This document shows positions 43,918-62,946 of a DNA stretch of 64,000 nucleotides, piece after piece (position 1 is the stretch's first letter; every line of letters starts with the position of its first letter). This stretch comes from an uncultured Alphaproteobacteria bacterium. GTDB lineage: Bacteria > Pseudomonadota > Alphaproteobacteria > HIMB59. The position numbers were made by a program, and so were the translations under genes. Location: NCBI GenBank assembly GCA_902610255.1, contig CACLUX010000007.1, forward strand, positions 1-64,000. Direction: 5' to 3'. A model generated the notes under the pieces. It searched no databases and was not told where the DNA came from. It saw only the letters and a program-made list of their open reading frames with translations.

Positions 43918-44922
43918 TTAATCAATATTCTCCATCCTCCCACTCTTGACAGATTTATAGGCAGTTTCGGCTAAGAGAAGAGCCCTTCTTCCGTCCTCAA
44001 AGCCAACAGATACTGGCTTCTTTTCCAAAATTGTTTCAACAAATGAGCTAATTGAATTCATATAAGACTCCTGGTATCTCTCAATAAAAAAGTTTAAATA
44101 GGGCTCACTCTTATCAACAAACTCTGAATTATATTTTTTCAATTCATGAGGCTTTCTATTTGCAGATATAACCATCCCTTTACTTCCAAACAACTCAACT
44201 CTCTGATCGTATCCATAAGTCGCTGATCTTGAGTTGTTTATGTGACATTGTTTCCCCGAGGCTGTTTCCATTATAATCATCAAGGTGTCACTATCATTTA
44301 ATTCAGATTTTATTTTTGGATTTATTAAAGCATTAGAAATTGCAAATACTTTAACTGGCTCTTCACCAAGCATAAAGCGGGCTAAATCAAAATCATGAAT
44401 TGTCATATCTCTGAATTGCCCACCAGACACTTTTAAATAATCCCAACTTGGTAAACCTGGATCTCTAGATGTAATCAAACATTGATGAAGTTCACCAATT
44501 TCACCATTAATAAAGGATTTTTTTGCAGCCTTGTGACCAGGATCAAATCTTCTATTAAAGCCTAGTTGGATGGGAACGTTATTGCCTTCAAGTCTTTTTG
44601 AAAACTCATCAACTTTTTTTATATCGAGGTCAATAGGTTTCTCACACAAAACAGGTTTTTTTGAAGCAACAGATCTTTCTATAAAATCAATATGTGTATT
44701 AGTTGGGGAAGCTATAAGAACAGCATCAATATCATTACTATTAAAAATATCGTCAACATTCTTGATAGCGACTACACTTAATTCATTTGATACTTTTGTT
44801 GCAAATTCATCATTTGGATCATATATGCATGCTAAATTTGTTTGTCCATGAAGTTGAATATTCTTAGCATGCATTTGGCCAATACGCCCACAGCCAATAA
44901 CTGCAATACTTACTTTTTTCAT
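43918..44922 (-). CDS. Gfo/Idh/MocA oxidoreductase, inositol 2-dehydrogenase-like
   Basis: VIGCGRIGQMHAKNI, SPTNTHIDFIE, CEKPIDLDIKKV, FNRRFDPGH, GGQFRDMTIHDFDLARFM. Confidence 0.9.
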   Translation of the reverse strand: MKKVSIAVIGCGRIGQMHAKNIQLHGQTNLACIYDPNDEFATKVSNELSVVAIKNVDDIFNSNDIDAVLIASPTNTHIDFIERSVASKKPVLCEKPIDLDIKKVDEFSKRLEGNNVPIQLGFNRRFDPGHKAAKKSFINGEIGELHQCLITSRDPGLPSWDYLKVSGGQFRDMTIHDFDLARFMLGEEPVKVFAISNALINPKIKSELNDSDTLMIIMETASGKQCHINNSRSATYGYDQRVELFGSKGMVISANRKPHELKKYNSEFVDKSEPYLNFFIERYQESYMNSISSFVETILEKKPVSVGFEDGRRALLLAETAYKSVKSGRMENID

Positions 44923-44966
44923 ACCACAGAAGTATAGTATTCTTTATTTATTAAAAATAAAAAAAA

Positions 44967-44979
44967 ATTCATTTTGAGT
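44967..44979. promoter_or_regulatory. Candidate operator, TTCA-N3-TGA-type site
   Basis: ATTCA-TTT-TGAGT between divergent genes 43918..44922 and 45039..45947. Confidence 0.5.
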
Positions 44980-45038
44980 ATAATTTAAGTATTCTTTAAA
45001 AGAATAATTTATCTATAATGTTATAAGAAGAGGATTTT

Positions 45039-45947
45039 ATGAAAGCAAAATTGGGAATAGCACCTATAGCATGGTCCAATGATGATTTACCTGAGTTAGG
45101 AGGAGAGACTTCTTTGGATACTTGCCTTAGTGAATCTAAGCTTGCAGGATTTATAGGTGTTGAAACAGGTGGAAAATTTCCAAAAACCGCTGAAAAACTT
45201 GATCCAATTTTAAAAAATCACAAACTATACCTTGCCTCTGGATGGTATTCAGGAACTGTTTTAGATAATGACCTAGAAAATGAAAAAGATAAAGTTCTTC
45301 AACAACTTACTCTCTTCAGGGACTTAGGCGCAGCAGTTTTAGCATATGGAGAAACATCTGGAACTATCCAAAATGTTAGACATGCTCCTTTAAACACAAA
45401 AAGAAAAATACATAGTGAGGATTTTAAAGAATACGGTAGAAAATTAACACTATTTGCAGAATTTTGTGAAGATTTTGGTGTGCCAATTTCATTTCATCAC
45501 CATATGGGTACAGCCATTGAGACTGAGGAAGAACTAGATAAGTTAATGACTCATACTGGTGAAGCGGTAAAACTTTTGTTCGATACAGGTCACATGAATT
45601 TTGCTGGAGGTAATTCTCTTAATATCATAAACAAATACGCTAAAAGAATTAATCATGTACATACAAAAGATATTAGATCAGAAATAATTAGTAAATTAGA
45701 TAGAGATAAGGAGAGTTTTCTTGATGCTGTGTTAAAGGGTGCATTTACTGTTCCTGGAGATGGTTCCATAAATTTTGTAGAGGTAGTTGAGGCTTTAGCC
45801 AGAAACAATTACGAAGGTTGGTTTATAGTTGAAGCAGAACAAGACCCTGCAAAAGCCAATCCTCTGGAATATGCCAAAATTGGTTTTAATGAATTAGTTA
45901 ACTGTTTGAAATCATTTGATTACCAAATTTCTGATTATCAAGATTAA
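45039..45947 (+). CDS. IolE-like (inosose dehydratase / sugar isomerase TIM barrel)
   Basis: KLGIAPIAWSNDDLPELGG, GFIGVETGGKFP, FHHHMGTAIETEEELDKLM, FDTGHMNFAGG, FIVEAEQDPAKANP. Confidence 0.88.
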   Translation: MKAKLGIAPIAWSNDDLPELGGETSLDTCLSESKLAGFIGVETGGKFPKTAEKLDPILKNHKLYLASGWYSGTVLDNDLENEKDKVLQQLTLFRDLGAAVLAYGETSGTIQNVRHAPLNTKRKIHSEDFKEYGRKLTLFAEFCEDFGVPISFHHHMGTAIETEEELDKLMTHTGEAVKLLFDTGHMNFAGGNSLNIINKYAKRINHVHTKDIRSEIISKLDRDKESFLDAVLKGAFTVPGDGSINFVEVVEALARNNYEGWFIVEAEQDPAKANPLEYAKIGFNELVNCLKSFDYQISDYQD

Positions 45948-51791: not shown

Positions 51792-51808
51792 ATATTCAAT
51801 ATGAACTT
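51792..51808. promoter_or_regulatory. Candidate operator, ATATTCA-N3-TGAA site
   Basis: ATATTCA-ATA-TGAACTT between divergent genes 50626..51738 and 51862..52683. Confidence 0.55.
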
Positions 51809-51861: not shown

Positions 51862-52683
51862 ATGAATAGCATTGATGGAAAATACGCTTTAGTTACTGGT
51901 GGAACTCAAGGTCTAGGCGCTGCCATCGCACAAAATTTTGCGATGAGTGGAGCTAAAGGTATTGTTACTATTGGAAGGAATGAGGAAAAAGGCTCTAAAG
52001 TTGCTAATAAAATAAAAAAAGATACTGGATGTAATGTTATTTTTGTAAAAACTGATTTACCTAAGATTGAACAATGCCGAAAAGCAGTGGCAATTGCAAA
52101 AAAAGAATTTGGAAAGTTAGATATTCTTGTAAATGCTGCAGGTATAACTGATAGGGGAGATATTGTTAATACCTCTGAAGAATTATTTGATAAAATGATC
52201 GGTGTTAATGTAAAAGGCCCATATTTTTTAATTCAAGATACAGTTAAGATTATGTTAGAGAAAAAAATTCATGGCTCGATAGTTAATATAGGCTCAGTTG
52301 CTGCTATGACTGGTCAACCATTCATATCAACTTATTGTTTATCTAAAGGCGCCTTAGCAACTTTAACACGAAACACAGCTTTTGCTCTTTTGAAAAATAG
52401 GATTAGGGTTAATCAATTGAATATCGGTTGGATGGCATCTGATGGAGAGCATGAAATCCAAACCAAGTATCATGGAGCGTCAGAAGATTGGTTAAAAGAT
52501 GCTGCAAAAGAGCAGCCATTCGGTAGGTTGTTAGATCCTAAAGAGGTTGCAAAAGCTGTTACATTTCTAGCCTCAGAGGACTCAGGAATGATGACCGGAT
52601 CGGTTGTAAACTTTGACCAGTCAGTTTGGGGAGGGTACCCCTTTGCACCACCTCAACCTGCTGAAGAAATGAAACTAAAGTGA
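51862..52683 (+). CDS. Short-chain dehydrogenase/reductase (SDR)
   Basis: ALVTGGTQGLGAAIAQNFA, NAAGITDRGDIV, YCLSKGALATLTRNTA, MMTGSVVNFDQSVWGG. Confidence 0.93.
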   Translation: MNSIDGKYALVTGGTQGLGAAIAQNFAMSGAKGIVTIGRNEEKGSKVANKIKKDTGCNVIFVKTDLPKIEQCRKAVAIAKKEFGKLDILVNAAGITDRGDIVNTSEELFDKMIGVNVKGPYFLIQDTVKIMLEKKIHGSIVNIGSVAAMTGQPFISTYCLSKGALATLTRNTAFALLKNRIRVNQLNIGWMASDGEHEIQTKYHGASEDWLKDAAKEQPFGRLLDPKEVAKAVTFLASEDSGMMTGSVVNFDQSVWGGYPFAPPQPAEEMKLK

Positions 52684-54369
52684 CTGGTTCAAGTACCTTT
52701 CTGTACTTTTTTGACACTCTTTGAGCGTCAACTCTAAATCTTTATTTAAAAAAATATATTCAAAAATTTTATTACCTACTTCCTCAATAATACTAGAGTA
52801 CGAGGGAAGAGGATATCTCGCCCATTCAACAATTTTTTCTTCTTTCTCCATTTTGTCAATTTCATTAAATATCGGACTTAAAGCTCTTACCTCGGGATCA
52901 TTTACAACACTGAACAATGGTGAGCTTAAACTACCATGTTCAATATAATACTTGATAAACTCTGGTGAAACAAAATTTCTGATTGTTTTTATTATGAATG
53001 GTATTTTTTCTTTAATAATATTAGAGGGTATGCCCAGCGAAAAACCCCCAATTGGAGAAACTTGAAAAGTCTCATATCCAGCTGGTCTAGGAAGATATCC
53101 AGTCTTCTTATAAGCTGGCGAATTTTTATTTAATTCAAATAAATGAGCCCTGCTACTCCAATTTATAACCATCGCCGACTTGCCTTGACTATAATATTCA
53201 ACACACTCATCATTAGAATGAGATGAGATTTCTCTAGGTGAGTAATTAACTAACTCTTTTAGCATTTTTGCGGCTTTAAAAGAAGCATCAGTTAAAAAGT
53301 TTGTCTTTAGTTTTATATTCTGAGAGTCTAGATCATAAAAATTATCACCTATGTGTCTAAGATTAATATAGGGTTTTCCATAGTTAGCCATAGCAAGAAT
53401 AAAGCTTGTTGCAAGAGGTTGACCTTTTCTTGCAGGCCAAGAAATTGGACTTTCGATTTCATTTTCTTTTTCTAAAACCGCACAAGCCTCAAGGAGTTCC
53501 TCAAATGTTTGTGGGGGATTTAAGTTATGTTTATAAAATAAATCCTTTCGATAAAATAATAAATCAGGGATAGCTTCAATTGGAATACCATAAAGAATAT
53601 TATTAAATGAACTGGACCTTATTCCGGAATAGTGAAAATCATTTAGATTCAAACCTTCTTTTATAGCAATATTATTTAAAGGCATTAGACAATTAGAATT
53701 TGCCAATTGGCCAATCCAAGGAATATTAAAACCAACAATATCATATTTGGATTTCTTTCTTGAAATTGAATTATTAACAATTTTCTCTAAAAGTTTTTGT
53801 AGATCTCCCTCTAATTCAAGTTCAATTTTACAACCAAGTATGTATTCAAAAAAATTCAAATTCTTTTTTATAACTTTGAAAGTAGGGTTATCATTTGACA
53901 GGAAACTTATTTTTTTAAATTTTTTACTTTGATTAGTAATGATTGATGGTGCTGAAATAATTTTTCCTGCTGTAAGAGATGTTCCAAAAAAATAATTATC
54001 ATTCATGTCATTATAGCCAAGATTAGTTGCAAATTCTTTTTTAATTAAAATCAAATAATCAGTGAAATCTTTAATAAGTTTACTACTTGGATGAATAGAA
54101 AAAGATTTTCCTGTTTTAGTTTTTGATCTTTTAATAAGCTTTTTTTCTTTAATAAGTTTTCGAACTTTTCTAAGCCCTGTTGCAAAAGGAAGGCCAGAGG
54201 CCTGTATAATACTTGAAGTTGTATTTATTTTATTTTCTAAATGATTTGACATCACAAAAGAAAATATTCTCCAATCTGAGTCGATACTGTTATTGGCAAT
54301 TGATTTATTAAATAAAACCCTAATCCTATCAACAAATTTGAGCAAAGATGTTATTTCGTTTCTATTCAT
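52675..54369 (-). CDS. Hybrid regulator: N-terminal winged-helix-like domain plus family-1 solute-binding-protein domain, no signal peptide
   Basis: N-term NTTSSIIQASGLPFATGLRKVRKLIKEKKLIKRSKTKTGKSFSIHPS (wHTH-like); C-term YDIVGFNIPWIGQLANSNCLMPLN, LYGIPIEAIPDLLFYRKDLFYKHNLNPPQTFEELLEA, GKSAMVINWSSR, IGGFSLGIPSN (SBP_bac_1-like). Confidence 0.75.
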   Translation of the reverse strand: MNRNEITSLLKFVDRIRVLFNKSIANNSIDSDWRIFSFVMSNHLENKINTTSSIIQASGLPFATGLRKVRKLIKEKKLIKRSKTKTGKSFSIHPSSKLIKDFTDYLILIKKEFATNLGYNDMNDNYFFGTSLTAGKIISAPSIITNQSKKFKKISFLSNDNPTFKVIKKNLNFFEYILGCKIELELEGDLQKLLEKIVNNSISRKKSKYDIVGFNIPWIGQLANSNCLMPLNNIAIKEGLNLNDFHYSGIRSSSFNNILYGIPIEAIPDLLFYRKDLFYKHNLNPPQTFEELLEACAVLEKENEIESPISWPARKGQPLATSFILAMANYGKPYINLRHIGDNFYDLDSQNIKLKTNFLTDASFKAAKMLKELVNYSPREISSHSNDECVEYYSQGKSAMVINWSSRAHLFELNKNSPAYKKTGYLPRPAGYETFQVSPIGGFSLGIPSNIIKEKIPFIIKTIRNFVSPEFIKYYIEHGSLSSPLFSVVNDPEVRALSPIFNEIDKMEKEEKIVEWARYPLPSYSSIIEEVGNKIFEYIFLNKDLELTLKECQKSTERYLNQSL

Positions 54370-54405: not shown

Positions 54406-54422
54406 ATATTCAATTTGAATAT
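54406..54422. promoter_or_regulatory. Candidate operator, perfect palindrome
   Basis: ATATTCA-ATT-TGAATAT between hybrid regulator and transporter operon. Confidence 0.7.
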
Positions 54423-54488: not shown

Positions 54489-55532
54489 ATGAATAAACTA
54501 ATAAAAGTATTAGCTGTTTTAATTTGCTTTTCTTTTGGTTCAGCCAAGGCGGTTGAAATCGTATCATTTAATGCTGCATCTTCTGAGGCTTATGTTGGTG
54601 CATTTGTTAAAGGAATTAAAGCGACAGCTGAGCAATATGGTTATGACATAACCGTTTTTGAAAACAACTATAACCAAGCTGAGCAAAACCAACAAGTAGA
54701 ACAGTACCTTTCAAGTGGGGCACTTCCAGATGTATTTATCTGGTGGCCACCTGATGCAGTTGCTGGCTTAGGCTCACTTAGAAAATTAGCTAAAACCGGA
54801 GTACCCGTATTAAAAATTAACCAATTACCTAATGAGCAAGATAAAGCATTCATCTTCGGATATGCTGGTCCAGATGACAGCCTACGCGCATACAACGCAG
54901 GTGAAATGATGGTTAAAGCTATGAAAATGAAACAAGCCGCTGGTGGTGACGGATATAATGTGATTGCACTATCGTACCCTCACTCCTATGGAGGTTATGG
55001 TTTATCGATTAATGCTTTCAAACAAGCTATCGCTGGTACAGATTTAAATCTTATTGGTGATATTGGTGAAGGCTTTGGACAGGCTAATGGTTACAAAGGT
55101 GCAGCTAAGCTTATTGCCAAAGTTAAAGACCAAGGGATTCATTTTGTATACGGAATGGATGATGCGATTCTAACAGGAGGTATTAAAGCTCTTGAAGAAG
55201 CTGGGTACAATGTTGATTGGTATGCAGGTACAGGCAAAAGCGGCAGTGTAGATAGTGATGCTGTTATTACTGTTGGAACTGTTTGTAATGGTGACAAGCA
55301 GATGATTACCGATGGTAAGCAATTTGGTACAACTCTTCAATCACCTCTTCATGAGGGTCAATTAGCTATTGCTCTTGTTAAAGAGTATATGGAAAACGGA
55401 GAGCTTGCTAACTATATAAACTTTACTCCTAATCCGTCAGTAACTGGTGCAACAATGGATTTCACTGCACTCAGAGGTTTTGATGGAAAATTATACGGTA
55501 TCAACGAGCTTTGCTCAGGTGCTTGGGACTAG
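54489..55532 (+). CDS. CUT2 periplasmic sugar-binding protein
   Basis: Signal peptide MNKLIKVLAVLICFSFGSAKA; type-I PBP pattern; SD AAGGAGG. Confidence 0.9.
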   Translation: MNKLIKVLAVLICFSFGSAKAVEIVSFNAASSEAYVGAFVKGIKATAEQYGYDITVFENNYNQAEQNQQVEQYLSSGALPDVFIWWPPDAVAGLGSLRKLAKTGVPVLKINQLPNEQDKAFIFGYAGPDDSLRAYNAGEMMVKAMKMKQAAGGDGYNVIALSYPHSYGGYGLSINAFKQAIAGTDLNLIGDIGEGFGQANGYKGAAKLIAKVKDQGIHFVYGMDDAILTGGIKALEEAGYNVDWYAGTGKSGSVDSDAVITVGTVCNGDKQMITDGKQFGTTLQSPLHEGQLAIALVKEYMENGELANYINFTPNPSVTGATMDFTALRGFDGKLYGINELCSGAWD

Positions 55533-55620: not shown

Positions 55621-57129
55621 ATGGCCTCTGATCCAATCCTAAAAATTACAGGAGTTTCAAGAACATTTGGTGCAATAAATGCTCTCAAAGAGGCAAATTT
55701 TGAGATAAACGAGGGTGAAATTATGGGGTTGGTTGGTGAGAACGGTGCAGGAAAATCAACTCTTGTTAAGATAATTAGTGGCTTTGATCCAGGGTTTCAA
55801 GGAAGCTATAAAATTAATGGCCAAGAAGTAAAATTTGAAACCCCCTCTCAAGCCGAAGAGTCAGGTATTGCAATAGCCCAACAAGAATTAAGTTTAATTC
55901 CTAATATGTCAGTCGCAGAAAATATTTTTTTAACTGGCACTAAGGTAAAAAAGTTCGCTACTCTTAATACTTTATCAAAAATGGCCAGACCATATCTTGA
56001 TGAGGTAGGACTCTCAGAAATAGACCCAACAACAAGAATTAATTTGTTATCTGTCGGCGAGCAACATTTAGTTGAAGTTGCAAGATTAATTTCAAGAGAA
56101 GCAAAAATTTTGATATTAGATGAACCAACAGCTGCATTGGGTGAAGCTGAAAGCAGAAGAATACTGGAAATGGTTGAGAGATTAGCCGCTAATGGTAAAT
56201 CAATTATTTATGTCAGTCACAGACTTGATGAAATTTTTAAAATCACAAAAAGAATTACAATTTTAAGAGATGGCCTAAGCCAAGGTATTCAATATACTAA
56301 GGATATAGATGTTAACAAACTTGTAGAAATTATGCTAGGTAGAGAACTTGCTAATATGTTCCCACCAAGGGCTGATCATATTAGCAATGACTCAAAGATT
56401 AAAATTAAAGATTTATGGCCTGATGGTGTTTTAGAACCTGTCAGTTTTTCTGCTTACAAGGGTGAGATATTAGGTTTATCAGGACAGTTAGGAAGTGGTG
56501 CGGGCGAGGTATTGGCTTCAATAGCTGGTGCGCTACAATCACGGTCTGGTTCTCTTATTATGAATGGTGAGAATTTTTTACCTAAATCTCCAAGTCAAGC
56601 AATTAAGAAAAAAATTGCTTATTGCTCTTCTGACAGAAAAAAAGATGGATTATTTCTTGGAAGACCAATCTTTGAAAATTTAACATCACCTGCTCTTAAT
56701 GCTATTTCTAATTATGGATTTAATTTTGGAAGCACAGAAGGTGATTATTCAAAAAATTTGGCAAGTGAATTTTTGATAGATGTAAAAAGAATGCATGATG
56801 AGTCAGGTCTTTTAAGTGGTGGGAATCAACAAAAAGTTGCTTTAGGTAAATGGCTATCTATCAAACCAGATGTATTATTAGTTAATGAACCAACTAGGGG
56901 TGTTGATGTTGGTGCAAAATCAGAGATTTATCAGAGGATGAGAGATTTAGCAGCAAGGGGTATTACAATTATTTTTGCTTCGACTGATATTCAAGAAATT
57001 ACTTACCTTCCTGACAGAGTGATTACCTTTTATAGGGGTATGATGATTGACGAACATCGCTTAGAACAAATTAAAACACCAATCATACTTAAAGAAATTA
57101 CTGACCCATTTAACGAGACAAATTTATGA
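55621..57129 (+). CDS. CUT2 ABC transporter ATP-binding protein (two NBDs)
   Basis: GENGAGKSTLVKIISGFDP, LDEPTAALGEAE, GQLGSGAGEVLASIAGA, LSGGNQQKVALGKW. Confidence 0.94.
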   Translation: MASDPILKITGVSRTFGAINALKEANFEINEGEIMGLVGENGAGKSTLVKIISGFDPGFQGSYKINGQEVKFETPSQAEESGIAIAQQELSLIPNMSVAENIFLTGTKVKKFATLNTLSKMARPYLDEVGLSEIDPTTRINLLSVGEQHLVEVARLISREAKILILDEPTAALGEAESRRILEMVERLAANGKSIIYVSHRLDEIFKITKRITILRDGLSQGIQYTKDIDVNKLVEIMLGRELANMFPPRADHISNDSKIKIKDLWPDGVLEPVSFSAYKGEILGLSGQLGSGAGEVLASIAGALQSRSGSLIMNGENFLPKSPSQAIKKKIAYCSSDRKKDGLFLGRPIFENLTSPALNAISNYGFNFGSTEGDYSKNLASEFLIDVKRMHDESGLLSGGNQQKVALGKWLSIKPDVLLVNEPTRGVDVGAKSEIYQRMRDLAARGITIIFASTDIQEITYLPDRVITFYRGMMIDEHRLEQIKTPIILKEITDPFNETNL

Positions 57130-58166
57130 GTACGATTATCCAAGATAATCAACAAACATTTTCGGTAAAATTTTTACAATTTTATAAAGATCGCACTCTT
57201 TTAGCTATTTTATTATCTCTTTTTGCTGTGATGTTTGTATATGGGATATTTTTTACAGAAAATTATTTAACAATAACAAATTTTAAAGCAATAATCAGAG
57301 ACGCTGCATTATATGGCATTATGGCCATAGGATTAACCTTTGTAACTTTATCAGGAAACTTTTTTTTATTATCACTAAAAGAAACAGCATCAATTTGTGG
57401 AGTTACATTTGCCATGGGGATGGCTACTGGATTTGGCTCTCCTGATTTAGCTGGAAATTTTTTAGTTTCACTTTTAGCTGCTTTGGCAGTCGGAATAGTT
57501 AGTGGAGTAATTCAAGGATATTTTGTCGGAATGGGAGGTAATCCTATCGTTGTTACATTAGGTGGAGCAGGTATTTTATATGGAATAGGTGCATGGTGGA
57601 GTGATAATCTTGTTATTAATTTTACTAGACCCCACGATGCTGAGTGGTTAGGCACAGGTTCTTTTTTAGGTTTACCGAGTATCACGTGGTCATTCATTTT
57701 GATCGCTATAGCAGCTGAAATAGTTTTAAGGCACACAAATTTTGGAAGAAAGGTATATCTAGTAGGCGCAAATAAAGCAGCAGGAAAAGCCACTGGTCAC
57801 GAAAATTTTTCAATGGCAATAATAGTTTTTACAATTTGCTCTGTTTGTTGTGCTTTTGTTGCTGTAGCATTCGTAGCTCAAATGGATAGTGCTCAGTCTA
57901 ATTATTTTTCAGCAGAATTTGGATCTTCTGGGGACATGACAATATTGGTTATTGCAACAGTCATGGTTGGAGGAAATTCTATTATGGGGGGATATGGCTC
58001 TACTTTGAGGACAAGTTTGGGTGCAATTTTTATTGCTATGGTAGACAATATGATGGTTTTACAAGGATTTAATAGTGGTCCTAGAATAGTAGGAGTGGGT
58101 TTGATGATAGTTTTTAGTATCATAGTATTTGGACTATTTGCGAAAGGAAGTAGGGCTCAGGAGTAA
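57126..58166 (+). CDS. CUT2 ABC transporter permease 1
   Basis: AIGLTFVTLSGNFFLLSLKETASI, GVIQGYFVGMGGNPIVVTLGGAGILYG, VMVGGNSIMGGYGSTLR. Confidence 0.9.
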   Translation: MSTIIQDNQQTFSVKFLQFYKDRTLLAILLSLFAVMFVYGIFFTENYLTITNFKAIIRDAALYGIMAIGLTFVTLSGNFFLLSLKETASICGVTFAMGMATGFGSPDLAGNFLVSLLAALAVGIVSGVIQGYFVGMGGNPIVVTLGGAGILYGIGAWWSDNLVINFTRPHDAEWLGTGSFLGLPSITWSFILIAIAAEIVLRHTNFGRKVYLVGANKAAGKATGHENFSMAIIVFTICSVCCAFVAVAFVAQMDSAQSNYFSAEFGSSGDMTILVIATVMVGGNSIMGGYGSTLRTSLGAIFIAMVDNMMVLQGFNSGPRIVGVGLMIVFSIIVFGLFAKGSRAQE

Positions 58167-59203
58167 TGGAAAATTTCGTAAAAAAATTAACAAAAGACGT
58201 AGATTTATCCTTTGCAATATTACTATCATTTTGTGTTTATGTATTTTTCGCATTAAATATTGAGGTATTCTTTAGTCATAATATTAGTTTTGCTATTCTT
58301 GAGAGATTTGCAGTTTTGGGTCTTGTAGGCTTAGCATTAACAATTTGTATTATTGCTGGAGAAATTGATTTATCGATTGGATCAAATGCAGCATTATGTG
58401 CAGTAATTGTTGTTAAGTTAACTGACCCTTTAGGAGCACCACTTGCAATAATTATAGGCTTATCAGTTTCTACACTTATAGGCGCTACTCAAGGATTTGT
58501 AATTGCATTTATAAGAATTAGAGCAATTGTAATTACTGTAGGAACACTAATGTTATTGAGAGGGGTTGCTCTTTTAATTGCTGAAGAAAAAACAGTTATG
58601 CTGACTGATTTTAGAGTTCCAGATTTTATAACAACAAAATTTTTTATGTATTTTTCTCCAGCTAGTATAACTGTCATCTTTATTTTTATTTTAGTTGGCA
58701 TTTTTATGCGTTACACAAAATATGGTAGAGAAATTTATGCAATAGGTGGAGCAAGAAAAGAAGCACTCACTGCAGGTATACCACTTAGAAGACCCATGAT
58801 CATTGCCTTTGCCTTATCAGGTTTTTGTGCTGGTTTTGCAGGAACAGTTATTGGATTAAAGTCAGGCACCGCACAAGGTTTGGGTTTACAATATCTTCTT
58901 CTCGCAGGAACTGTTGCTGCATTTGTCGGAGGTGTGAGTATCTTAGGAGGAAAGGGTGGAGTTTTAGGAGCAGCTATTGGGGCACTTACTGTAAATTTTT
59001 TAAACACTGGTCTTGTTTTCTACGCTCTTCAAGTTCATTTTGTACAATTATTTACATCCGTGCTCCTAGTAATAGTTATAGTATTTCAAACTATGTCTAG
59101 AGTATTTGACTCCAGACAATCTAGGAAGAGTTTGCTTGCAACGATTGATGAACGAAAAATAGCACTTCTTGAAAAGAAAAAATCATCTAAATTTGGTAAG
59201 TAG
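58166..59203 (+). CDS. CUT2 ABC transporter permease 2
   Basis: IIAGEIDLSIGSNAALCAV, ITVGTLMLLRGVALL, ALTAGIPLRRP, FVGGVSILGGKGGVLG. Confidence 0.92.
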   Translation: MENFVKKLTKDVDLSFAILLSFCVYVFFALNIEVFFSHNISFAILERFAVLGLVGLALTICIIAGEIDLSIGSNAALCAVIVVKLTDPLGAPLAIIIGLSVSTLIGATQGFVIAFIRIRAIVITVGTLMLLRGVALLIAEEKTVMLTDFRVPDFITTKFFMYFSPASITVIFIFILVGIFMRYTKYGREIYAIGGARKEALTAGIPLRRPMIIAFALSGFCAGFAGTVIGLKSGTAQGLGLQYLLLAGTVAAFVGGVSILGGKGGVLGAAIGALTVNFLNTGLVFYALQVHFVQLFTSVLLVIVIVFQTMSRVFDSRQSRKSLLATIDERKIALLEKKKSSKFGK

Positions 59204-59204
59204 T

Positions 59205-60197
59205 TTAATCTAAATATATAATTTTATTATTATTCGCTGACTTTTTAGCTGCGTCAGCTATTTTCATTGCAATGAGCCCATCATTAAAATCTGGTGAGGG
59301 CCTACCTTTTCTATTAATAATATCTACAAAATTATCTATTTCATTTACAAAAGCCTCTTTATACCTCTCTAAAAAAAAATGTTGGTAATTATCTTTTGAA
59401 TTAGTTGAGTTTTTTAAGGTAATCTCTAAGTTTGAGTCTCTTAAATTCGTAGTGCTTATCATTCCTTTGGAGCCAAAAGCTTCAACTCTTTGATCGTAAC
59501 CATATGAGGATTGACGCGAGTTATTAATTTGACATAGTAATCCTGTTTTTGTCTTCAAAATTGTATTAACTGTATCAAAGTCTCCAGCTCCTCCAATTTT
59601 CTTATCAATTAAGCAACTCCCTCTCGCAAAAACTTCACTTGGGTTTTCTGACATTAGCCATCTGGCAATGTCTATGTCATGAATTTGGCTATCAAGAAAA
59701 ATACCTCCCGAAACTTTGACATAACTAATTGGCGGAGGACTCGGATCTCTAGAGGTAATAGAAATCATTCTTAATTTTCCTATTTTTCCAGAGTCAATAT
59801 ACTTTTTTAATTTCATTAACGAAGGGTCAAATCTTCTCATAAAACCTATAAAAAAATTTGTCCTATTCTTTTTTAAAATATTTTCACATGAAATTACTTT
59901 ATTGATGTTTAAATCAATTGGTTTTTCACAAAAAATATTTATTTTTCGTTCAGAAAATTTTTTAATGAAGTCAACATGGGTGTTGGTTGCAGAACCAATG
60001 AGCACTGAGTCAAAATCTTTTTTTTTTAAAACCTCATCAACAGTTCTTATTGGAACAGATCCATATTTTTTTGCTAATTTTTTTGCAGAGTCAAAATTAG
60101 TATCAACAACATATTTAAGATTTATTTTTTTGTTATCATATATATTTTTGGAATGAACTAATCCTATTCTTCCAGCTCCAATTAGACATATATTCAT
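59205..60197 (-). CDS. Gfo/Idh/MocA oxidoreductase, inositol 2-dehydrogenase-like (paralogue of 43918..44922)
   Basis: CLIGAGRIGLVHSKNI, GSATNTHVDFIK, CEKPIDLNINKV, FMRRFDPS, SSYGYDQRVEAFGSKGM. Confidence 0.9.
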   Translation of the reverse strand: MNICLIGAGRIGLVHSKNIYDNKKINLKYVVDTNFDSAKKLAKKYGSVPIRTVDEVLKKKDFDSVLIGSATNTHVDFIKKFSERKINIFCEKPIDLNINKVISCENILKKNRTNFFIGFMRRFDPSLMKLKKYIDSGKIGKLRMISITSRDPSPPPISYVKVSGGIFLDSQIHDIDIARWLMSENPSEVFARGSCLIDKKIGGAGDFDTVNTILKTKTGLLCQINNSRQSSYGYDQRVEAFGSKGMISTTNLRDSNLEITLKNSTNSKDNYQHFFLERYKEAFVNEIDNFVDIINRKGRPSPDFNDGLIAMKIADAAKKSANNNKIIYLD

Positions 60198-60242
60198 ACA
60201 TTATAATATTAAATATTATTTTAAGAAAATAATAACAAATAT

Positions 60243-60255
60243 GCTCACAATGAAA
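60243..60255. promoter_or_regulatory. Candidate operator, weak TTCA-N3-TGAA-like site
   Basis: GCTCA-CAA-TGAAA upstream of the minus-strand gene 59205..60197. Confidence 0.4.
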
Positions 60256-60259
60256 CTTT

Positions 60260-61960
60260 TTAATAAACTTGAATATCTATAGAATTTTGAATTTCTTCAA
60301 TAATTTTTAAACATTTTGTTCTATGTATATTTGAGTTTAACTTGAATTCACTATTTAACCTATTTCCAATAATATTCGCAACTTTTGTAAACTCTGGCAA
60401 TGGAAGTCTTGACCAACTGTTTACTTTCCCTGTTTTTTGAAGTTTATCAATTTTTAAAACTGATGGACTAACCTCTTGAACCACAGGATCATTAGAAACA
60501 CTAAAAAGTGGAGATGTAGTTACACCTTTTTCAACATAGTATTTAATCATACTTGGAGAAACTAAAAATTTAATTACAGAAAATGATAGATTAATTTTTT
60601 TTTTCATAATATTTGATGGTATTCCCAATGAATAACCACCTATAGATGACGTTTGATAGCCCTCTTTACCTCCAGGTTTGGCATCGTAAATTGATTTTTT
60701 TCTAGCGGGGGAAAGTATATCATTTTCAAAAAAACCACTCCTTCCAGACCAAATATTTGCTATAGCAACTTCACCATTTGAATAAGATTCAGCGACCTCA
60801 TCCCAACTCATGTTCAAAGTATCAGGATGAGAATATTTAATTATCTTAAAAAGCAAAAAAATACTCTCTTGACCAGCTGAATTAAATATATTTATTTTTT
60901 TATTAATTGAGTCGAGATTGTTTGTTTCAAAAATTGAGTCAGATATTTTTCTTAGATCTACAATTGGAGAGCCTAGATTCCCCATCATTTCCATAAAATG
61001 GCAACCCAAAGTAAAACCAGATTTACCAGGCCAAGCAAAAGGATATTTTATTAAATTTGAATTTTTAATCCGCTTTAGACAGAAAAAAAGATCACTAATT
61101 GTTTGAGGAATATTTAAATTTAATTGTTTAAATATATCTTCTCTGTAAACCATAATAGAAGCAACTTGTTCAATTGGTAATCCATATAGTTTATTATTAT
61201 AAGAGGATGCATTTATACCCTCTGGATGAAAATCTTTAATATTAAAATCGTTATCAACAATCAAATCATTTAAAGGGAGTAAATATTTATTATTATAAAT
61301 TTCGCCTGTCCAAGGTACATCAAAACAAATAATATCGTAATTTGAATTTTTTAATTCTGAATTTTTAATAAGCTCTTTTCTTAAATATTCATTGTTCATT
61401 AAAGAAATATCTAATTTTAATCCAAGTAAATTTTCTATATATTTTTTATTTCTTTTTATAATTTTGAATGTTTGATTATCGTTAAATAAAATTGATATTA
61501 CTTCGTTTGCATCACAGTTCAGATTAATTTGTGTAGGCTTTGGAATAATATTAGCTGAAAGAAGTGAAGTTCCAAAATAAAAATTATTATTTTTTTTATT
61601 TTCATAACCTAAGCTTAAAGCAATGTGTTCTTTTATTTGTTCTAAATAGTTTGTAAAAGATAGATATAATTTTTCACTAGGATGAAGAGAAAAAGTTTTG
61701 CCAGTAGTTGTTCTAGGTTTTTGAATTATTATTTTTTTTTTAATTAATTTTTTAATTTTTCTAATTGCAGTTGCTCTAGGTAACCCGCAAGAATGTGCTA
61801 AGCTAGTAATGGTAACTAATTTATTATCAAGATGACATTTAATTAAATATGAATAAATTTTCCAAATAAAATTTTTAGAAATCGCTTCTTCATCAAAATT
61901 AAATAAATTATTTGATTTATCAATAAATGAAATTAAATATTTTAATTCATTTCTATGCAT
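60260..61960 (-). CDS. Hybrid regulator paralogue: winged-helix-like domain plus family-1 solute-binding-protein domain, no signal peptide
   Basis: N-term VTITSLAHSCGLPRATAIRKIKKLIKKKIIIQKPRTTTGKTFSLHPS; C-term YDIICFDVPWTGEIYNNKYLLPLND, LYGLPIEQVASIMVYREDIFKQLNLNIPQT, IGGYSLGIPSN; colinear with 52675..54369. Confidence 0.75.
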   Translation of the reverse strand: MHRNELKYLISFIDKSNNLFNFDEEAISKNFIWKIYSYLIKCHLDNKLVTITSLAHSCGLPRATAIRKIKKLIKKKIIIQKPRTTTGKTFSLHPSEKLYLSFTNYLEQIKEHIALSLGYENKKNNNFYFGTSLLSANIIPKPTQINLNCDANEVISILFNDNQTFKIIKRNKKYIENLLGLKLDISLMNNEYLRKELIKNSELKNSNYDIICFDVPWTGEIYNNKYLLPLNDLIVDNDFNIKDFHPEGINASSYNNKLYGLPIEQVASIMVYREDIFKQLNLNIPQTISDLFFCLKRIKNSNLIKYPFAWPGKSGFTLGCHFMEMMGNLGSPIVDLRKISDSIFETNNLDSINKKINIFNSAGQESIFLLFKIIKYSHPDTLNMSWDEVAESYSNGEVAIANIWSGRSGFFENDILSPARKKSIYDAKPGGKEGYQTSSIGGYSLGIPSNIMKKKINLSFSVIKFLVSPSMIKYYVEKGVTTSPLFSVSNDPVVQEVSPSVLKIDKLQKTGKVNSWSRLPLPEFTKVANIIGNRLNSEFKLNSNIHRTKCLKIIEEIQNSIDIQVY

Positions 61961-62059: not shown

Positions 62060-62078
62060 AATATTCAAAATGAATATT
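62060..62078. promoter_or_regulatory. Candidate operator, perfect palindrome
   Basis: AATATTCA-AAA-TGAATATT, 8-bp perfect arms. Confidence 0.7.
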
Positions 62079-62142
62079 TTAATGATAGCGATTGCGTACA
62101 AAAAAATATTCAATAAATAATTATATTTGGTTGGAGGATTAT

Positions 62143-62946
62143 ATGGATAAGGAGAGACTTAAGGGTAAAAATGTTTTGATAACTGGTGCTGCCCAAGGAA
62201 TGGGTGCTGCAGTTGGAGAGCACTTTGCTTCCCAAGGGGCCAAAATTTGTTTAACAGATGTAAACCTTGACGGATGTAAAGAGGTTGAAGACAGAATAAG
62301 ATCTGCGGGTGGTGAGGCTATTTCATGTAAAGTTGACGTTCGAAATCGTGAAGATCATGTAGCTGCTGTAAAAGCAACAGTTGAAAACTTTGGTAGCCTA
62401 AATGTTTCAATAAATAATGCAGGAGTAAATAAACCACTCTTCTTTATGGATATAACTGAGGAAAATTATGATTTTATTATGGATATAAATGTACGAGGTG
62501 CTCTTTTAGGTATGCAAGAACAAGCTCGACAAATGATTAAACAAGGTAAACAGAAAGAGCCCTATAAAATTATTCATGTAGCGTCCATCCTATCTAGAGA
62601 AACTTTTGATGATGTTGTAGTTTATGGGATGAGTAAACATGCAATAGCTGGTTTAATAAAAGGTGGCGCAAAAAGTTTGGTTGAACATGGTATTACTGTC
62701 AATGGTTACGGCCCTGGTGTAGTAAGAACAGAGTTATGGGAGCAACTAGATAGAGATTTAGTTGCAATTGGAAAATTTGACAAACTCGGAGAGTCAATGG
62801 ATAAAATTGCAGAGAACATGATTTTGATGAAGAGGTATTCTTATCCTGAAGATGTAGTAGGTACAGCATCATTTTTAGCATCTAATGAGTCTGACTATAT
62901 GACAGGACAAATACTTATGATTGATGGAGGGATGGTAATTCAATAA
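62143..62946 (+). CDS. Short-chain dehydrogenase/reductase (SDR)
   Basis: VLITGAAQGMGAAVGEHFA, NNAGVNKPLFFMD, YGMSKHAIAGLIKGGAKSL, MTGQILMIDGG; start set at 62143 after GGAGG (track start 62092 is an upstream TTG). Confidence 0.92.
   Translation: MDKERLKGKNVLITGAAQGMGAAVGEHFASQGAKICLTDVNLDGCKEVEDRIRSAGGEAISCKVDVRNREDHVAAVKATVENFGSLNVSINNAGVNKPLFFMDITEENYDFIMDINVRGALLGMQEQARQMIKQGKQKEPYKIIHVASILSRETFDDVVVYGMSKHAIAGLIKGGAKSLVEHGITVNGYGPGVVRTELWEQLDRDLVAIGKFDKLGESMDKIAENMILMKRYSYPEDVVGTASFLASNESDYMTGQILMIDGGMVIQ

Follow-up and report, generated by a model that had tools for sequence, protein, structure and literature searches.

What does a solute-binding protein (SBP) do when it is joined to a DNA-binding domain and carries no export signal? 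This question is raised by REG1, a gene in a 64-kb window (the whole stretch of DNA analysed here) from a HIMB59 genome of 1.09 Mb that is about 80% complete. HIMB59 corresponds to the AEGEAN-169 clade (PMC10308909). REG1 is read here, with considerable confidence, as a one-component regulator that stays in the cytosol, has a sensor derived from an SBP and controls a CUT2 importer/dehydrogenase regulon, DNA binding and ligand binding being inferred. The evidence obtained by computation comprises its domains, the lack of an export signal, a single-family origin, conserved synteny, and the conservation of an operator that co-occurs with the gene. A second regulator copy, REG2, resembles REG1 along its whole length and was also confirmed as an open reading frame (ORF), with no orthologue found among 52 genomes of the genus. 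The features of the locus are collected in Table 1.

Table 1. Regulators, putative operators and neighbouring genes, numbered by position in the window
Feature	Position	Strand	Remarks
REG1 (regulator copy 1)	52675..54369	-	564 aa, fusion of winged helix-turn-helix (wHTH) and family-1 SBP
REG1, predicted MarR-like winged-helix DNA-binding domain	54022..54369	-	residues 1-116
REG1, complete family-1 (MalE-type) solute-binding domain, predicted sensor	52687..53919	-	residues ~151-561
SDR oxidoreductase converging on REG1	51862..52683	+	conserved neighbour; 3' ends overlap by 9 bp
Operator 1, palindrome between REG1 and CUT2 operon	54406..54422		ATATTCAATTTGAATAT; putative, no binding data
CUT2 periplasmic binding protein, divergent from REG1	54489..55532	+	Peripla_BP_4 with signal peptide; probable target
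CUT2 ATPase	55621-57129	+	probable target
Two CUT2 permeases	57126-58166, 58166-59203	+	probable targets; transporter part spans 55621..59203
IolG-type inositol 2-dehydrogenase	59205..60197	-	TIGR04380, 391 bits, cutoff 355; 62 bp downstream of REG2
REG2 (regulator copy 2)	60260..61960	-	566 aa, 41% identical to REG1
Operator 2, upstream of SDR gene, divergent from REG2	62061..62077		ATATTCAAAATGAATAT; putative, no binding data
SDR oxidoreductase	62092..62946	+	probable target of operator 2; ORF from TTG 62092, likely start ATG 62143 after GGAGG

The two domains of REG1

The solute-binding part of REG1 is readily recognised. Pfam identifies SBP_bac_1 over residues 202-431 (E = 5.6e-18; 66.4 bits against a curated cutoff of 26) and SBP_bac_8 (E = 4.4e-13). 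SBP_bac_1 also matches 27/27 aligned family members, all of which match SBP_bac_1/SBP_bac_8. Over residues 155-558, a profile of the family can be aligned with transport SBPs from one end to the other (2.9e-60 for 5iai, 4.2e-44 for 1eu8), indicating that the whole two-lobed SBP is present in REG1. Structural comparison of the full-length model gave the trehalose/maltose-binding protein 1eu8 as the best match (E=1.3e-25), with MalE3, 5iai and SmoF close, and the SBP part reached TM-scores by target length of 0.84-0.87 against family-1 SBP structures. The sugar-SBP segments PW-G, YG-P, R-D, GG-aromatic and RP are conserved over the 27 members. Because the fold is both complete and conserved, a sensor role is inferred for this domain, in the absence of ligand-binding data. 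The initial annotation had argued that the sensor was not copied from the neighbouring transporters, and this is borne out, since the window's CUT2 binding proteins belong to Peripla_BP_4 and not to family 1. Five such CUT2-type proteins, with transporter genes, are encoded in the window of this streamlined genome (28948-29982, 33330-34343, 39624-40526, 49519-50475 and 54489-55532).

An SBP domain that senses nothing, and serves a DNA-acting REG1 only for dimerisation or as a protein-interaction scaffold, is unlikely but cannot be set aside entirely. The missing ligand-binding evidence leaves room for it, as do the long branches on which some members sit. Erosion of the fold would be expected if it were only a scaffold, however, whereas all of it is conserved in the 27 members and can still be aligned with transport SBPs over its full length. 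Standalone relatives of the wHTH domain also exist, which argues that this domain can persist without an SBP part and counts against a scaffold. Sensing is thus retained as the inferred role. Two of these relatives, of 144-146 aa, were seen in genus genomes G031 and G023 (L043:6400-6840 and L044:6813-7247). Both stop inside the linker, with Pot-like importer and cyclase-like genes nearby, and they resemble regulators in which the sensor was lost or had never been present.

The N-terminal part is more divergent in sequence. Searches of REG1 alone against Pfam and NCBIfam returned no HTH match, and the domain was therefore examined through an alignment of the family and structure models. Among the 27 aligned members, MarR_2 matched 17 (best 2.3e-4), REG1 itself not included, and further matches to the N-terminus came from HTH_IclR (best 2.2e-7), HTH_24 and TrmB. 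The AlphaFold model of the first 120 residues of REG1 contains a wHTH (mean pLDDT 86.8), formed by helices at 3-23, 31-44, 51-58 and 62-74, strands at 78-82/90-94 and a helix at 96-116. In a Foldseek comparison of this model with the PDB, the matches were mostly MarR/MepR/SlyA structures at a probability of ~1.0, with a best E-value of only 1.5e-3, which is weak. The same 120 residues are basic (23 K/R vs 9 D/E). The full-length model is of modest quality (pLDDT 77.7), with low values around residues 18-29 and 124-140. On the strength of these models, the N-terminus is predicted to adopt a MarR-type winged-helix fold, the absence of which would have refuted the earlier reading. The arrangement first described for the 564-aa ORF, an HTH-like N-terminus followed by a full-length family-1 SBP, was confirmed by Pfam, the family profile and AlphaFold together.

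Operators and gene neighbourhood

A palindrome beside REG1 had been suggested as its operator. The sequence is exact, and although no binding data exist, the suggestion is strongly supported by its conservation in the genus and its co-occurrence with the gene. When 14 distinct REG1/CUT2 intergenic sequences are aligned, ATATTCAAnTTGAATAT stands out as a conserved block amid diverged flanks. The exact sequence is found in 24/25 genus genomes with REG1, the 25th having one mismatch, and in 0/27 without it; a reversed control pattern gave 3 matches in all 52. Two of the genomes scored as lacking REG1 have a contig that stops just before the gene, and they retain the SDR-gene site. Within the window's own genome, operators 1 and 2 are the only sites with at most one mismatch to ATATTCAAnTTGAATAT, where ~0.25 would be expected from base composition.

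These counts bear on an improbable alternative, namely that some other regulator binds the palindromes and the fusion protein has a different job. It draws on the fact that the operators are recognised by conservation only, without demonstrated binding. The exact operator nevertheless tracks the gene genome by genome, and a related motif accompanies the family in lineages with different gene content. REG1 thus remains the preferred candidate for binding these sites.

Nearly identical to operator 1, operator 2 lies on the far side of the CUT2 permeases, upstream of the SDR gene, in 11/13 genus loci. As these include genomes without REG2, its interpretation as REG2's own site was dropped. Judged by this pattern, it may be described as a conserved SDR-gene operator that is not necessarily REG2's own; REG2 and its adjacent iolG gene (59205-61960) sit between the permeases and this site. 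Two weaker palindromes with three mismatches each are not claimed as operators. One, at 44965-44981 in the divergent region between iolG and iolE, is conserved in only part of the genus; the other, at 51792-51808, lies in a Gfo-Idh/SDR divergent intergenic region.

The distance from operator to start codon is 66 bp for the importer (operator 1) and 65 bp for the likely SDR ATG (operator 2). The REG1 ATG lies just 36 bp from operator 1, so that the REG1 promoter should overlap the operator, and this geometry favours autorepression by inference. When the two intergenic regions were scanned for promoters, matches were no more numerous than in shuffled sequence.

A related motif, TATYCAnnnTGRATA, is found upstream of many distant homologues, often paired 21 bp apart. 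Allowing up to two mismatches, 22/28 matches in 14 annotated plasmid loci were intergenic, where intergenic DNA makes up 12%; this DNA is AT-richer than genes, which favours an AT-rich motif in such a count. Permuted half-sites gave 0.18 matches on average vs 16 for the real motif, and some of the stretches compared had been picked with knowledge of matches. A clean test is provided by seven loci with eight regulators that were retrieved later and not used in building the motif. In this held-out set, 11 matches fell in the 2,800 bp upstream of regulators vs 7 in the other 144,207 bp counted, the shuffled expectation being 0.28, and 21-bp pairs preceded 4/8 regulators. Pairs exactly 21 bp apart were also noted upstream of regulator homologues at L080, L082, L084, L086, L105, L106, L108, L133, L134, L135 and L139. 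This spacing equals about two helical turns, suggesting cooperative binding of two dimers. No match to the motif was found at the Loktanella, Shinella, Paraburkholderia, G410 and G732 regulator loci, indicating that the operator is not universal and differs between branches.

REG1 is divergent from an SBP-ATPase-permease-permease CUT2 operon in 16/16 genus loci examined (13 genomes). By scores that exceed the NCBIfam cutoffs, two Gfo/Idh/MocA genes, at 43918-44922 and downstream of REG2, count as IolG equivalogs and 45039-45947 as an IolE equivalog. Distant homologues mostly adjoin CUT2 operons with SDR, GMC or Gfo/Idh/MocA oxidoreductases. More rarely they are surrounded by CUT1 operons, seen beside the regulator only in Agrobacterium and Aminobacter loci, or by intradiol-dioxygenase/maleylacetate-reductase clusters. 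Genes for intradiol dioxygenase, maleylacetate reductase, YciI and Gfo/Idh/MocA proteins accompany the regulator in four Rhizobiales loci (L087, L093, L090 and L091), a set that gives a hint of a pathway of the type leading from cyclic polyols to hydroxyquinol. As the neighbouring catabolic genes vary between lineages, no single ligand class fits all regulators.

Cellular location and distribution of the family

Most distant homologues are labelled 'extracellular solute-binding protein' in databases. This label, together with the SBP fold, is what could support the very improbable interpretation of REG1 as a conventional SBP, periplasmic or tethered to the membrane, that has an unusual extension at its N-terminus. 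Hydropathy analysis, however, revealed no signal peptide or transmembrane (TM) segment in any of 35 family members. In REG1, 19-residue hydropathy peaks at 0.72 within the first 70 residues and at 1.06 over the whole protein, whereas neighbouring SBPs with signal peptides reach 1.97-2.07. Of the transport SBPs closest to the sensor domain, most likewise show signal-peptide or TM hydropathy, unlike the regulators. A hidden signal peptide can also be discounted, because the ORF opens with ATG and no ATG, GTG or TTG occurs between it and the preceding stop codon. The start-codon check and hydropathy thus uphold the earlier view that REG1 lacks a signal peptide or TM anchor. In addition, the N-terminus is conserved, basic and predicted to form a wHTH, and most members adjoin CUT2 rather than CUT1 genes. 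REG1 is very likely a cytosolic transcription factor, although no experiment has addressed this.

Within the genus, the fusion is present in 25/52 genomes (one copy truncated at a contig end), including 9/10 well-completed ones, with 59-77% identity to REG1. Full-length homologues extend to Roseobacteraceae, Rhizobiales, Azospirillaceae, Vibrio (Vibrio penaeicida) and Paraburkholderia, at identities of 20-77% overall. Plasmid-borne homologues were identified in Skermanella, Phaeobacter, Marinovum, Pacificitalea, Tritonibacter, Loktanella, Rhizobium, Sinorhizobium, Shinella, Agrobacterium, Aminobacter and Paraburkholderia. Culturable relatives with a homologue include Phaeobacter inhibens (WP_254683009.1) and Tritonibacter mobilis (WP_283502692.1). 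Homologues occur in at least 9/387 genomes of a class-wide sample, and matches, some of them SBP-only, in at least 11/398 of a phylum-wide sample; both are lower bounds for the distribution of the family, with no more than three candidates per genome scored. In one genome (G685; L137, L138), three full-length regulator copies were observed, two of them flanking one CUT2 cluster. That REG1 is two genes fused by a sequencing or assembly error, which would have overturned the initial annotation, finds no supporting evidence and can safely be dismissed, as the identical fusion recurs in the 25 genus genomes and in many distant genera, including Vibrio and Paraburkholderia as well as members of Rhizobiales and Roseobacteraceae.

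In a phylogenetic tree, the SBP domains of the regulators form one clade (100/99), separate from the six transport SBPs included, while REG1 and REG2 group with the genus clade (100/100). Long branches limit any finer reading. Computation on the SBP-domain clade thus shows a single-family origin, as far as sequences alone can tell.

Proposed mechanism and relation to known systems

REG1 unites a predicted sensor and a predicted DNA-binding domain in one non-exported chain, with a conserved operator beside its gene, and in these respects fits a one-component transcription factor, its ligand-dependent DNA binding being inferred. In the proposed mechanism, the MarR-like winged helix, presumably dimeric, would bind the palindrome ATATTCAAnTTGAATAT, whose form across the family is TATYCAnnnTGRATA. 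The non-exported MalE-type domain would sense a sugar or cyclitol that has been imported, or the first metabolite formed from it, and ligand-induced closure of the two SBP lobes would alter DNA binding. In this way REG1 would control its own gene as well as the divergent CUT2 operon that encodes the importer and, behind that operon, the SDR gene. DNA binding, dimerisation, ligand binding, the identity of the ligand and the sign of control are all inferred, without experiment. Judging from the neighbouring genes, the ligand is probably a cyclitol or sugar, and the IolG and IolE neighbours tip the balance towards a cyclitol. For the importer and SDR genes, ligand-relieved repression is somewhat more likely than activation, with no direct evidence for either.

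More broadly, it seems quite likely that these proteins constitute an unnamed, scattered but widespread transcription factor family that arose once. In such a family, a MarR-like winged helix was joined to a complete CUT1-type SBP that is kept cytosolic and controls unrelated CUT2 importers and polyol/cyclitol dehydrogenases, through an operator, TATYCAnnnTGRATA, often present as two sites 21 bp apart. Its recognition corrects a systematic misannotation as 'extracellular solute-binding protein' across Proteobacteria. It also supplies a testable operator and regulon for the abundant uncultured HIMB59/AEGEAN-169 bacteria and for culturable roseobacters.

Several known systems share part of this design. 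Like the MarR family, REG1 shows the predicted N-terminal fold, a short palindromic operator and a divergent arrangement. MarR proteins, however, sense inside the same small domain, whereas REG1 is a 564-aa protein with an added 400-aa SBP domain, and MarR Pfam models match members of the REG1 family only weakly and REG1 itself not at all. In LacI/GalR, sugar-uptake genes are controlled through a sugar sensor that descends from a periplasmic binding protein, but there a type-I domain is paired with a LacI-type HTH, while REG1 pairs a family-1 type-II SBP with a winged helix. LysR proteins combine an HTH with a type-II PBP-like domain, the effector domain being about 200 aa, in contrast to the ~400-aa family-1 SBP of REG1. 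Neither the LacI HTH and type-I Peripla_BP domain nor HTH_1 and LysR_substrate are among the Pfam families matched by the 27 members. LacI and LysR are analogous to REG1 and unrelated to it by domain content. Over its entire length, the sensor domain can be aligned with the family-1 SBPs of CUT1 importers (5iai, TMBP 1eu8, MalE3 6dtq and SmoF 7ofy); these are exported, whereas REG1 has no export signal, carries a wHTH and belongs to a family mostly found with CUT2 genes.

In the initial annotation, this architecture was not known to have a characterised member. This stands for family-1 SBPs, as no description of a wHTH joined to one was found in the open-licence literature. It does not hold for HTH proteins with type-II SBPs in general, for which the transcription factors SgrR and DsvR, with an N-terminal HTH and a C-terminal SBP_bac_5, set a precedent (PMC13060122). 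Both they and REG1 carry an N-terminal HTH and a C-terminal solute-binding domain, but the SBP is of family 5 in the former and family 1 in the latter, and the gene context differs. Among the 27 regulator members, SgrR_N (PF12793) matches only one (E=0.16) and SBP_bac_5 (PF00496) is absent from the Pfam families matched. Going by the domains tested, SgrR and DsvR would be the nearest known architecture, yet another family, to which REG1 would not belong.

Periplasmic binding proteins have also been joined to DNA-binding domains as engineered PBP-DBD chimeras that act as sensors, showing that the principle can work (PMC6079105). Those chimeras are man-made, while the REG1 family appears to be their natural counterpart and offers a natural template for biosensors so far engineered in this way. 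Beside LacI (type-I) and SgrR (family-5), the REG1 family would represent an additional route from transport binding protein to gene regulator, one that draws on family-1 sugar SBPs, a large group whose structures are well known.
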